From Geodermatophilaceae bacterium (lineage in GTDB: Bacteria > Actinomycetota > Actinomycetes > Mycobacteriales > Geodermatophilaceae), in NCBI GenBank assembly GCA_013812145.1, contig JACCTY010000184.1:1-46804 (forward strand): 46,804 nt of DNA, read 5' to 3'. How positions within the stretch are numbered: position 1 is the first letter of the stretch; the number at the start of each line of letters is the position of its first letter. This document shows positions 9,233-30,888 of the stretch, in pieces. Both the position numbers and the translations under genes were made by a program. The notes below the pieces were generated by a model, which saw nothing but the letters and a program-made list of their open reading frames with translations, made no database searches and was not told the DNA's origin.

Positions 9233-10549
9233 GTGAGCGCATTGCTGGACGATCCGTCGCCTGCTTGGTCCGGGCACCCGATCGCCGGAGCGGTCGCGCG
9301 GATCGGCGGCTGCCTGGCCGAGGCTGCCGAGGCCTGCCTGTGGTCGCTGTCGGACCGGGAGCTCCCGGATGTGCTCGAGGCGGCCGGTACGGCGCTGGCT
9401 CAGTTGCAGGGCCTGCTGGTCAGCTTGGTCGGTGAGGTGGACGCCCGGGAGCTGGCCGCCAAGGTGGGCGCGTCGGGGACGGCGGCGCTGGCCCGACAGC
9501 GACTCGCGCTGACCCCGGCAGACGCCGCCGAGCTGACCGCGGTGGCCCGCGCGACCCGCCGGGAGCTGTCGGCGGCGGGACAGGCGCTGGCGGCCGGGCA
9601 GGTCAGCTACCGGCAGGCCGCCGCGATCGTCCGCGCGGTTGGCAATCTCCCGGACGAAGTCGGTCCAGAAGTACGCCGGCGCGCCGAGGCGCACCTGATC
9701 GGTGAGGCGGCCCGGTTCGACCCGGCCGAGCTGGCCCGGCTCGGCCGGCACATCCTGGAGGTTGTCGCCCCGGACGCCTGGGAACGGATCGAGGCCGAGC
9801 GGCTGGCCCGAGACGAGGAGCGGGCCGCCCGCCGCCGCGAGTTCACGATGATCGACGACGGACACGGTCTGCACTGGCTGCGCGGACGGCTGGACACCGA
9901 GGCCGCCGCGGTGCTGCGAGCCGCCCTGGACCCGCTGTCCGCGCCCGCCCCTGCTGGCGAGCACGGCCCGGACCTGCGCACCGGCCCACAGCGTCGTGCG
10001 GACGCCCTGGTCGAGCTGGCCCGCCGCGCCCTGATCGGTGACCAGCTCCCCGACAACGGCGGACAACGGCCGCAGGTTGTGGTCACGGTGCCGCTTCGCA
10101 CCCTGACCGACCAGCTGGGGCACGCCACTGTCGACGACGGAGGCATCCTGTCTCCGACCGCCGCCCGCATCCTGGCCTGCGACTGCCAGCTCATCCCGGC
10201 CGTCCTCGGCTCGACCGGACAGGTCCTCGACCTCGGCCGGTCCCAGCGGCTGTTCATCGGGTCGCTGCGCCGGGCGTTGGCGCTGCGCGACGGCGGCTGC
10301 GCGTTCCCGGGCTGCGACCGGCCCGCGGCCTGGTGCGACGGCCACCACATCATCGCCTGGGCCGACGGCGGCAACACCAGCCTCGCCAACGCCGTCCTGC
10401 TCTGCGGACACCACCACGCCGTCGTCCACCGCGACAACTGGACCATCCGCCTCGCCGACGACGGCATCCCCGAATTCACTCCGCCGGCCTGGATCGACCC
10501 CACCGCGACCCCCCGGCGCAACCACCGATACCGATCCCGCGCCCCGTAA
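9233..10549 (+). CDS. DUF222 / HNH endonuclease-domain protein (13E12-repeat type)
   Basis: A 438-residue protein with the architecture of the actinobacterial 13E12-repeat family. The alpha-helical DUF222 domain spans about residues 40-330, with ELTAVARATRRELSAAGQAL as a typical stretch. The C-terminal HNH nuclease runs from about 345 to 415. RDGGCAFPGCDRP supplies the zinc-knuckle cysteines, CDGHHIIAWADGG the first HNH histidine and asparagine region, and LLCGHHHAVVH the last histidines. The HNH core looks intact, so DNA cleavage or nicking is plausible. The biological role of this often multi-copy family is unsettled; a mobile or defence role has been suggested but not shown here. It stands alone between the gltX operon and a CPBP gene. 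Confidence 0.9.
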   Translation: MSALLDDPSPAWSGHPIAGAVARIGGCLAEAAEACLWSLSDRELPDVLEAAGTALAQLQGLLVSLVGEVDARELAAKVGASGTAALARQRLALTPADAAELTAVARATRRELSAAGQALAAGQVSYRQAAAIVRAVGNLPDEVGPEVRRRAEAHLIGEAARFDPAELARLGRHILEVVAPDAWERIEAERLARDEERAARRREFTMIDDGHGLHWLRGRLDTEAAAVLRAALDPLSAPAPAGEHGPDLRTGPQRRADALVELARRALIGDQLPDNGGQRPQVVVTVPLRTLTDQLGHATVDDGGILSPTAARILACDCQLIPAVLGSTGQVLDLGRSQRLFIGSLRRALALRDGGCAFPGCDRPAAWCDGHHIIAWADGGNTSLANAVLLCGHHHAVVHRDNWTIRLADDGIPEFTPPAWIDPTATPRRNHRYRSRAP

Positions 10550-27794: not shown

Positions 27795-28870
27795 CGAGGA
27801 TACGCGTCGCGGTGGTGTTCGGTGGGCGCAGCGCCGAGCACGCGATCAGCTGCGTCTCGGCCGGCAACGTGATGCGGGCCCTGGATAGGGACCGGTACGA
27901 CGTCGTACCCGTCGGCATCACCGCGGAGGGGTCATGGGTGCTCGCCGCCGACGACCCCGCCGCCCTGCAGATCCACGACGGCGAGCTGCCGGAGGTCAGC
28001 AAGGGCGCCGCGGTCGTGTTGTCCGGTGACCCGGCCGCACGCGGGCTGATCCTGCTCGACGCCGTCGCCGGGCCGGCTGCGTTGGACTCGGTGGACGTGG
28101 TCTTCCCGGTGCTGCACGGCAGCTACGGGGAGGACGGGACCATCCAGGGACTGCTGGAGATGACCGGACTGCCCTACGTCGGGGCGGGGGTGTTCGCCAG
28201 CGCCGCCGGGATGGACAAGGAGTTCACCAAGAAACTGCTCGCCGCCGCCGGCTTGCCGGTCGGGCAGTACGCCGTACTGCGGCCCCACGCAATCCTGAGC
28301 GAGGTCGACCGGGACCGGCTCGGGCTCCCCGTCTTTGTCAAACCGGCCCGGGCCGGCTCCAGCATCGGCATCACCAAGGTCACCGACTGGTCAGGCCTCG
28401 ACGCGGCCGTGACGACGGCCCGTGCGGTGGACACCAAGGTCATCGTGGAGGCGGCGGTGTCCGGCCGCGAGATCGAGTGCGGCGTACTCGAGGGCGTCGG
28501 CGGTGGGCCGCCCGAGGCCAGCGTCCCGGGCGAGATCCGGATCGTCGGCGATCACGAGTGGTACGACTTCGAGGCCAAGTATCTTGATGACGCCTGCGAG
28601 TTCGACGTCCCAGCAGTCTTGCCCGGCGAGGTGACCGAGCAGCTGCGGGGGATGGCCTGTCAGGCGTTCACCGCGCTGTCGTGCGAAGGGCTCGCGCGCG
28701 TGGACTTCTTCCTCACCGACGTGGGCCCCGTCGTCAATGAGATCAACACGATGCCCGGATTCACCGAGATCTCGATGTTCCCGCGGATGTGGGAGGCCAG
28801 CGGCCTGTCCTACCCCGCGCTGATGGACCGGCTCATCGCGTCGGCGTTGGCGAGGCACTCGGCTGGCTGA
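27791..28870 (+). CDS. ddl: D-alanine--D-alanine ligase
   Basis: An ATP-grasp ligase making the D-Ala-D-Ala dipeptide for peptidoglycan. The 359 residues are the usual length. The N-terminal [20 protein letters not shown] is the diagnostic first block, [17 protein letters not shown] the second, [15 protein letters not shown] the ATP-grasp lysine and loop, and [20 protein letters not shown] and [14 protein letters not shown] the Mg/ATP and D-Ala sites. The GTG overlaps the preceding stop; the frame is open further up but homology begins here. It ends the plsC-gpsA operon, overlapping by 38 bp the 3' end of the convergent DUF3515 gene, so the two transcripts are antisense at their ends. Confidence 0.97.
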
Positions 28871-29363
28871 TCATCGGCAGCCGGTCGGTGATGACGACGC
28901 TCAGCAGCGCCACCGGTCCGCTGGCCTGCCCGCTCGGTACCCGTACGTCGACGTACACCTCGCGGTCCACCGCCGTCCACACCGTGTCGTCCTCGCCGGG
29001 CTCGGTGAACCAGGCGACGCCGTTGATCTCGAACACCGAGGAATCTGCGGCCAGACCGGGCGGGCGAGGTACGCCGCAGCGCAGCACGATAGGCGGGTCT
29101 CCCCACGCGGCGGCGTACGGCGAGGCGGAGCGGACCGGCCTCGCCTGGGAGTCGGCCAGGGTGAGAGGCAGCCCGCCCATCAGGGTGGGACACAGCCGGT
29201 CGGCGTCGGGGGTGACCTCCGGCGTCTCCACCTCCAGGATGGGAAGCTCGGCGCGCGGCGACACGGGATCAGGCTCCGATTCGCGGCCGCGGTTGAACAG
29301 CAGGACGAGAACGACGAACAGGGGGAGTGCGACCGCCGTCGCGAGCAGGGCCGGGCGGATCAG
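28833..29363 (-). CDS. DUF3515-type membrane-anchored protein with an apparent CTG start
   Basis: Residues from about 35 on ([59 protein letters not shown]) match the DUF3515 family, common in actinobacteria and of unknown function. The first ATG/GTG/TTG codon in frame is GTG 29264, inside the conserved part of the chain, and gives 143 residues without a membrane anchor. Upstream, the frame stays open and encodes [19 protein letters not shown], a strong signal-anchor, preceded by CTG at 29363 that overlaps the stop of the upstream RAM-domain gene (CTGA). I therefore extend the gene to the CTG (176 residues). Alternatives are a GTG start without the anchor, or a sequencing frameshift. It faces ddl. 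Confidence 0.7.
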
Positions 29364-29608
29364 AGGTGGACGACCGGACAGGTCAGGGTCCGGGTGATGC
29401 CGTCCACGCCCTGCACCTTGGCCACGACCAGCTTGCCCAGCTCGTCCACGTTGCGCGCCTCGGCGCGGACGATCACGTCGTACGGGCCGGTGACGTCCTC
29501 GGCGGCCGTGACGCCCTTGATCTCGGCGACCGATGTTGCCACCGACGCGGCCTTGCCGACTTCGGTCTGGATGAGGATGTAAGCCTGGACCACAGCCATC
29601 CCTTTCAT
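29360..29608 (-). CDS. Lrp/AsnC-type ligand-binding (RAM) domain protein
   Basis: An 82-residue stand-alone AsnC C-terminal (RAM) domain without a DNA-binding helix-turn-helix. The betaalphabeta-betaalphabeta pattern is clear in VVQAYILIQTEVGKAASVAT, VTAAEDVTGPYDVIVRAEAR and VQGVDGITRTLTCPVV. Such small proteins assemble into oligomers and bind amino acids; in mycobacteria and streptomycetes a similar gene sits at this locus, but its role is unsettled. Two in-frame ATGs compete (29608 and 29599). AAAGGG directly abuts the second and is too close to act as its ribosome site, so I keep the first. It shares an overlapping -10 with thiL. Confidence 0.88.
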   Translation of the reverse strand: MKGMAVVQAYILIQTEVGKAASVATSVAEIKGVTAAEDVTGPYDVIVRAEARNVDELGKLVVAKVQGVDGITRTLTCPVVHL

Positions 29609-29628: not shown

Positions 29629-29635
29629 TAACCTA
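29629..29635. promoter_or_regulatory. Overlapping divergent -10 elements between the RAM gene and thiL
   Basis: TAACCT on the plus strand (29629-29634) and TAGGTT on the minus strand (29635-29630) occupy almost the same bases. The plus element is 24 nt before the proposed thiL start, leaving an 18-nt leader with AGGAGG. The minus element is 21 nt before the RAM-gene ATG. Divergent transcription from one symmetric -10 is inferred. Confidence 0.4.
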
Positions 29636-29658
29636 CCGGACAGTTCAGGAGGTCGGTC

Positions 29659-30609
29659 ATCACAGTCGGCGACATCGGGGAGTTCGCACTCATCGAGCAG
29701 GTGACGGAGCGGCTGCGCGGCGGACCGTCGTGCCTGCTCGGTCCGGGCGACGATGCCGCGGTGGTCCGGACGCCGGACGGGCGCGTCGTCGCCTCCACCG
29801 ACCTGCTCGTCGAGGGCAGTCACTTCCGCCGCGACTGGTCCTCCGCAGCGGATGTCGGCGTCAAGGCCGCCGCCCAGAATCTGGTCGACATCGCCGCCAT
29901 GGGAGCCGTGCCGACAGCCCTGCTGGTCGGGCTGGCCTGCCCGGCGGACCTGCCCGCGGCGTGGGCGCGGGAGTTCACGGCCGCCTTCGACACCGAGTGC
30001 GCGCTGGTTGGCGCGGTCCTGGTCGGCGGGGACGTGAGCCGCAGCCCGACGCTGACGATTGCGGTGACCGCGCTCGGCGATCTGGAGGGGCGGTCGCCGG
30101 TGACCCGAGCGGGGGCCGAGCCCGGGGACGTCGTCGCCCTGACCGGCCGCCTGGGCTGGTCAGCGGCCGGTCTCGCCGTCCTCAGCCGCGGGTTCCGCTC
30201 CCCGGCGCAGGTCGTCGCCGCCTACCGTCGCCCGGCCCCCCCGTACGCCGAGGGCCCGATCGCCGCGACCTGTGGCGCGACATCGATGTGCGACGTCAGC
30301 GACGGGTTGGTCCAGGACCTCGGGCATGTCGCCAGGGCCAGCGCCGTACAGATCTGCATCGACACCCCGCGGCTGGAGGTCGCCCCCCGGCTTCAGGACG
30401 TCGGCCGCGCGCTGAACGTCGACCCGATGCGGTTCCTGCTCACCGGAGGCGAGGACCACCCGCTGGTGGCGACGTTCCCGTCGGCGAAGTCGGTGCCACG
30501 CGGCTGGACGGTGATCGGCCGGGTCCGCGAGGGCGAGGGCGTGCTGGTCGACGGGGCGGCGTACCCACTGCCGGGCTGGGACTCCTTCAGCGGCGGCGCC
30601 CGCGGCTGA
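29659..30609 (+). CDS. thiL: Thiamine-monophosphate kinase with an apparent ATC start
   Basis: Phosphorylates thiamine monophosphate to the active diphosphate. GPGDDAAVV, STDLLVEGSHF, NLVDIAAMGAVP and CDVSDGLVQDLGH are the AIR-synthase-fold metal and ATP blocks. The N-terminal family signature V-G-(D)-x-GEFxLI is present as VGDIGEFALIEQ, but the first ATG/GTG/TTG in frame (GTG 29701) lies after it. Upstream, AGGAGG at 29647-29652 is exactly 6 nt before ATC 29659, which yields ITVGDIGEFALI, equivalent to the usual MTTVGDLGEF start. No conventional start exists between the in-frame TAA at 29629 and 29701. I annotate ATC (316 residues); GTG 29701 (302 residues, truncated) is the fallback. Confidence 0.9.
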   Translation: MTVGDIGEFALIEQVTERLRGGPSCLLGPGDDAAVVRTPDGRVVASTDLLVEGSHFRRDWSSAADVGVKAAAQNLVDIAAMGAVPTALLVGLACPADLPAAWAREFTAAFDTECALVGAVLVGGDVSRSPTLTIAVTALGDLEGRSPVTRAGAEPGDVVALTGRLGWSAAGLAVLSRGFRSPAQVVAAYRRPAPPYAEGPIAATCGATSMCDVSDGLVQDLGHVARASAVQICIDTPRLEVAPRLQDVGRALNVDPMRFLLTGGEDHPLVATFPSAKSVPRGWTVIGRVREGEGVLVDGAAYPLPGWDSFSGGARG

Positions 30610-30888
30610 TGCGGTTCCGAGCCCTGCCCTTCGACGACCCGGTTGTGACGGACCTCATCGAGCGGGTGCAGCAGGAGTACGTCCTCCGGTACGGCGGACC
30701 GGACGCGACGCCGGTCGACCCGGCCGAGTTCACCCCGCCGGCCGCGGATCGAGCTGTTCACCGGGCTGGCCCAACCAGAGGCGATCAGCCTGTACGTCAC
30801 CTCCGGCTACCGGCCGGTGCCCGGGTACGGCCCCTACCGAGAGGAGCCCGACGCACGGTACTTCGGAAAGCAGGTGAAGCTGGCATGA
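30609..30888 (+). pseudogene. GNAT acetyltransferase remnant with its core deleted
   Basis: The ATG overlaps the thiL stop (TGATG). The first part, DPVVTDLIERVQQEYVLRYG and DPAEFTPP, is the N-terminus of a common actinobacterial GNAT protein. After about 30741 homology continues in another frame with RIELFTGLAQPEAISLYVTS, then GYRPVPGYGPYREEPDARYF and a stop at 30886-30888, which is the C-terminus of the same type of protein. The acetyl-CoA-binding core between them, roughly 80 residues, is missing and the junction is out of frame. It cannot make an active acetyltransferase. It is probably a deletion derivative still cotranscribed with thiL. Confidence 0.75.

Follow-up and report, generated by a model that had tools for sequence, protein, structure and literature searches.

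The thiL gene and its start region

The window, the whole stretch of 46,804 nucleotides that was analysed, carries thiL on the forward strand at positions 29659-30609. Read from the AUC codon described below, the gene would encode a thiamine-phosphate (thiamine-monophosphate) kinase of 316 amino acids, the enzyme of the last step in the synthesis of thiamine diphosphate, the vitamin B1 cofactor. In profile searches the product matched the NCBIfam models NF004351 (440.1 bits, cut-off 324) and TIGR01379 (267.7 bits, cut-off 184.15) at full length, the Pfam domains AIRS and AIRS_C were found, and solved ThiL structures (e.g. 5cc8 and 3c9r) aligned to it from residue 4-6 onward. The gene is present as a single copy in its own genome, where the second-best match was found at E 1e-7. 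Such second-best matches may be SelD/HypE-type proteins; a selenocysteine tRNA was reported by ARAGORN in contigs C1-C120 of this genome.

The reading frame of thiL is closed upstream by a TAA stop codon at 29629-29631, 10 codons before an ATC codon at 29659-29661, and neither ATG, GTG nor TTG occurs in frame between this stop and the conserved GEF motif of the protein. The first canonical codon, GTG at 29701-29703, lies after the conserved ITVGDIGEFALIEQ. The ATC is preceded by a Shine-Dalgarno sequence, AGGAGGT (29647-29653), the core of which (AGGAGG, 29647-29652) ends exactly 6 nt before it, the spacer being TCGGTC (29653-29658). Direct reading of the sequence thus confirmed two statements of the initial annotation, that no conventional start exists back to the TAA and that AGGAGG is spaced by 6 nt from the ATC. 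Behind the ATC the codons ACA GTC GGC GAC ATC GGG GAG TTC follow, and the predicted N-terminal peptide of ThiL from AUC is TVGDIGEFALIEQVTER in the window species. The neighbouring GTC at 29656 was rejected as a start; the aligned codon in relatives is GCC, CCA, GCG or ATC.

A TAACCT hexamer at 29629-29634 had been put forward as a -10 element giving an 18-nt leader, and this proposal was not borne out. No sigma-70-like site was called, and the hexamer is kept in one congener (G001) but changed in two others (G002 and G003) and in the sister genus (G012). It therefore stays an unproven candidate, and the 18-nt leader an unsupported guess. The predicted RNA fold over the start region (29641-29720) was no better than that of shuffled sequences (z -0.06).

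Conservation of the start codon among relatives

The predicted AUC start was upheld by comparison with close relatives, all of which have ATC and none ATG or GTG at this position. The same-codon ATC with GGAGGTC before it was found in all three congeners (G001-G003) and in the sister genus (G012), and GGAGGTC is kept in the five closest species. Over codons 1-14, from the ATC to GTG 29701, third positions accounted for 9 of the 11 variable columns in five species, and pairwise differences numbered 4, 7 and 50 at codon positions 1, 2 and 3, respectively. Since the variation is concentrated at third positions, these codons appear to be translated, with selection acting on the protein. In the leader upstream of the ATC, on the other hand, the indels break the reading frame, among them a 1-nt indel between the Shine-Dalgarno sequence and the ATC in G003.

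These comparisons bear directly on two other readings of the locus. Translation might begin at GTG 29701, which gene finders would pick, with the conserved residues upstream left untranslated, and a protein truncated in this way still scores above the NCBIfam cut-offs. Such a start is, however, at odds with the amino-acid constraint on codons 1-14 and would lose the conserved GEF motif where TIGR01379 begins; moreover, the GTG lacks a Shine-Dalgarno sequence and is replaced by GTC in G001 and ATC in G012. Alternatively, a base or assembly error could have made ATC from ATG or GTG, which had been named as the main alternative; the assembly is of a metagenome type and consists of 186 contigs. 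Yet four further close species, assembled separately, carry the same base, as do genomes of other families that consist of a single contig, so that an error no longer qualifies as the main alternative. Because the ATC is conserved, codons 1-14 are constrained and GTG 29701 is not conserved, both readings are excluded on comparative grounds, the downstream start being very improbable and the error close to inconceivable.

The comparison was extended by sampling at the level of the order and then of the class, giving 120 non-redundant thiL genes to which start types were assigned by rule. The start served by a Shine-Dalgarno sequence was non-canonical in 43 of these genes: AUC (34 genes) or AUU (one gene) at the codon aligned to 29659, and AUU four codons upstream (8 genes). 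The class-level scan was confined to ATY, and these counts therefore give no proportion of AUC starts for family f31. Canonical starts were assigned to the remaining 77 genes, among which the aligned codon itself served as the start, in sister and other lineages, as ATG (17 genes) or GTG (7 genes). In 15 genes no ATG, GTG or TTG was found from the in-frame stop to GEF, and these had either ATC at the aligned codon (14 genes) or ATT four codons upstream (one gene). In all 35 genes with ATC or ATT at the aligned codon the Shine-Dalgarno match was 4 nt or longer, and the spacing was 5-7 nt in most of them. Among starts at this same codon the mean match was 5.5 nt for AUC/AUU vs 4.1 nt for ATG/GTG (p 2.7e-4, uncorrected for relatedness).

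The AUC/AUU genes were distributed over families f1 (3 genera), f2, f7, f9, f12, f21, f24, f28 and f31; family searches for f7, f9 and f12 yielded no additional genomes. The f31 genes grouped with thiL of Nonomuraea gerenzanensis (Streptosporangiaceae); the complete replicon of this species, NZ_LT559118.1, reads AGGAGGTG-CGTC-ATC-ACA-GTC-GGA-GAT, with TVGDLGEFGVVNR as the predicted N-terminal peptide from AUC. In one clade of f2 (L012, L207-L209, L212, L213, L218 and L220) the start had moved to an ATT four codons upstream, behind GGAGG, and was thus still non-canonical (AUU) rather than ATG or GTG. The share of ATC/ATT starts among the thiL genes (43 of 120) exceeds what chance would give, since in the window species' own genome ATC makes up only 3.4% of codons and ATT 0.19%. 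ATT is thus 18 times rarer than ATC; if codon usage in the relatives is similar, this rarity makes it unlikely that the ATT cases are ordinary internal codons. On the thiL tree, a quick build with many weak forks, 7 changes sufficed for the 43 AUC/AUU and 77 canonical rows, compared with at least 27 for shuffled labels. So few changes of start type imply that the AUC/AUU state has been inherited over long times. AUC is not indispensable for thiL, because it has been exchanged with ATG or GTG in several lineages.

The wider sample also offers some support for a start further upstream, from a frameshifted frame, a leaderless ATG or re-initiation, with ATC 29659 as an internal isoleucine codon. 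Several loci of the f31/Streptosporangiaceae type have an extra in-frame ATG or GTG 6-7 codons upstream of the ATC, and in one f2 genome, too, such a codon lies in frame a few codons ahead of the ATC. These upstream codons, however, lack a Shine-Dalgarno sequence, are not conserved, and in L233 are cut off by a TAG only 4 codons upstream of the ATC. In the window, the TAA lies close before the start and no ATG, GTG or TTG was found in any frame within 60 nt before ATC 29659; together with the frame-breaking leader indels, this makes an upstream start about as improbable as one at GTG 29701. From the comparative sequence evidence, the predicted AUC/AUU start of thiL is evolutionarily conserved and not a sequencing error, and AUC 29659 is very probably the real start in the window species.

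Genome-wide context and neighbouring genes

A blind codon-usage scan was carried out on 1.53 Mb, about half of the own genome, comprising 1255 genes. In 25 of these genes, thiL included, coding signal preceded every canonical start by 12 codons or more, and the coding boundary of thiL was placed within one codon of the ATC. Across the same 1.53 Mb, ATC or ATT behind a Shine-Dalgarno sequence was not enriched in start-less stretches, and a general relaxation of start-codon choice in this genome was rejected on this result. The same result weighs against a special initiator tRNA (e.g. with anticodon GAU) that would read AUC as a normal start. Such a tRNA is still conceivable on a tRNA check that covered about half of the genome, where 22 tRNAs were found, none with a CAU or GAU anticodon; against it, to our knowledge infC is translated from AUC/AUU without any special tRNA in those bacteria in which it has been studied. 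We consider this reading highly improbable, slightly more so than a start at either of the two other positions.

Three further loci with unusual start regions were noted in the own genome. At L360, on the minus strand near position 10511 of the reverse complement, an ATT lies 4 nt after GAGGTGA where coding signal begins in a 605-codon frame, another possible AUU start. In a LOG/lysine-decarboxylase-like gene (L346:19213-19749, plus strand) coding signal sets in at a CTG preceded by GAGGTG, and no canonical start lies close by. In a methyltransferase gene (L295:7796-8548, minus strand) AGGAGG is followed after 6 nt by a CTG, and coding signal starts well before the first canonical start.

The divergent neighbour of thiL, at 29360-29608 on the minus strand, encodes a stand-alone Lrp/AsnC ligand-binding domain protein (Pfam PF01037). 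It was found beside thiL in 39 of 43 AUC/AUU loci and 75 of 77 canonical-start loci. As it adjoins canonical-start thiL genes just as often, the neighbour was rejected as a cause of the AUC start. Directly after lrp lies a DUF3515 gene (28833-29363, minus strand), in which both coding signal and the Pfam match precede the first canonical start, GTG 29264. Its candidate start CTG (29363-29361) overlaps the lrp stop (CTGA), and the CTC-TGA-TCC overlap is present in all five closest species; such a CTG is automatic wherever TGA follows C and may be coincidence. Behind thiL, at 30607-30888 on the plus strand, pieces of a GNAT-like acetyltransferase were recognized, MRFRALPFDDPVVTDLIERVQQEYVLRYGG followed by ELFTGLAQPEAISLYVTSGYRPVPGYGPY in another frame, the family being assigned by eye. 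They look like what is left of a single gene after an internal deletion or a frameshift.

Known non-canonical starts and the possible role of IF3

We know of very few bacterial genes for which AUC or AUU starts are established, and most of that knowledge comes from infC. In the own genome infC starts as AGGAGGCCCC-ATC, in the context TCAGGAGGCCCC-ATC-AGC-GCT-GAG, and here, as in every relative with a readable start, a GGAG-type Shine-Dalgarno sequence precedes an ATC or ATT start. These infC starts place the organism within the group known to initiate at AUC. For infC, AUU serves as the start in E. coli and ATC in Streptomyces, and this AUU/AUC start is repressed by the gene's own product IF3, which proof-reads start codons on the ribosome (PMC5472188). 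The two genes share the class of start codon, a strong Shine-Dalgarno sequence, conservation and occurrence in the same genomes; they differ in that infC is autoregulatory, whereas ThiL is a metabolic kinase without a known role in initiation.

Streptomyces sigR has a GTC start that is repressed by IF3, and a canonical codon or weakened IF3 raises SigR (PMC5472188). Like thiL, sigR is actinobacterial, has the extended AGGAGGTG and a codon conserved among orthologues, and is misannotated by gene finders. Unlike thiL, it uses GTC rather than AUC, its conservation was reported within Streptomyces only, and its start is proven by experiment while that of thiL is read from sequence. E. coli pcnB, which has an AUU start, resembles thiL as a low-level enzyme with an IF3-discriminated start, although gene, phylum and physiology are different. 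The thiL start shows the sequence features of the infC/sigR type, namely no usable canonical start, a strong Shine-Dalgarno sequence and an orthologue-conserved codon. On our prediction, thiL adds a new and deeply conserved member to the few genes with IF3-discriminated starts (infC, pcnB and sigR). Searches of the open-access literature turned up no paper describing thiL with AUC or another non-canonical start, an absence that is not proof of novelty.

At the first two bases IF3 tolerates nothing but Watson-Crick pairs, and it also excludes weak pairs at the third base (PMC10158994). Under the explanation that we favour, the ordinary initiator fMet-tRNA (anticodon CAU) would decode AUC 29659 with the first two bases paired and the third mismatched, and the strong, well-spaced AGGAGG would make such initiation possible. 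An extended Shine-Dalgarno sequence has been suggested to help non-canonical starts (PMC5472188), a proposal that the longer match of the AUC/AUU thiL genes fits. IF3 would reject the weak third-base pair, so that translation of thiL, like that of infC, would be low and would vary with how much IF3 is present or how active it is; non-canonical starts are expected to work at low efficiency, and lower still when IF3 is high. Over much of the Actinomycetes AUC/AUU would have been retained in thiL by selection, probably because the cell requires little ThiL or because the quantity of ThiL ought to track initiation-factor status. We infer fMet decoding, IF3 repression and low yield of thiL, and regard this explanation as a whole as likely. 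Given an AUC start, it is a little more likely still that translation of thiL is limited by IF3, and throttling by IF3 is plausible, being consistent with the AUC start of infC in the same genome and with Streptomyces sigR.

As a sub-case of this explanation, the AUC could serve as a passive brake that fixes ThiL at a low level with no response to IF3 or to thiamine state. Small amounts suffice for cofactor kinases, the stronger Shine-Dalgarno sequence at AUC/AUU starts is as expected for compensation, and a search of the window for regulatory Rfam elements, TPP riboswitches included, gave no match. However, an ATG with a weak Shine-Dalgarno sequence would do equally well, and the long conservation of AUC/AUU, with AUU retained where the start had moved, suggests that the codon itself matters. 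We give a purely passive role an even chance. That the AUC start is regulatory, beyond low expression alone, is possible but rather unlikely, and that thiamine diphosphate synthesis is physiologically coupled to IF3 is speculative. Slightly more doubtful again is a scheme in which thiL and infC form an old IF3 regulon of the Actinomycetes, thiamine diphosphate synthesis would rise when IF3 is scarce or impaired, and AUC/AUU would have been selected for regulation and retained in more than one order, including lineages in which the start shifted.

Where annotation is restricted to ATG, GTG and TTG, ThiL is bound to be cut short or wrongly extended in many genomes, and with ThiL misannotated the true N-terminal peptide is missed by proteomic databases. 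As a metabolic gene with an infC-type start in many families, beyond one order of the Actinomycetes, thiL would provide an independent test of a wider IF3 regulon.
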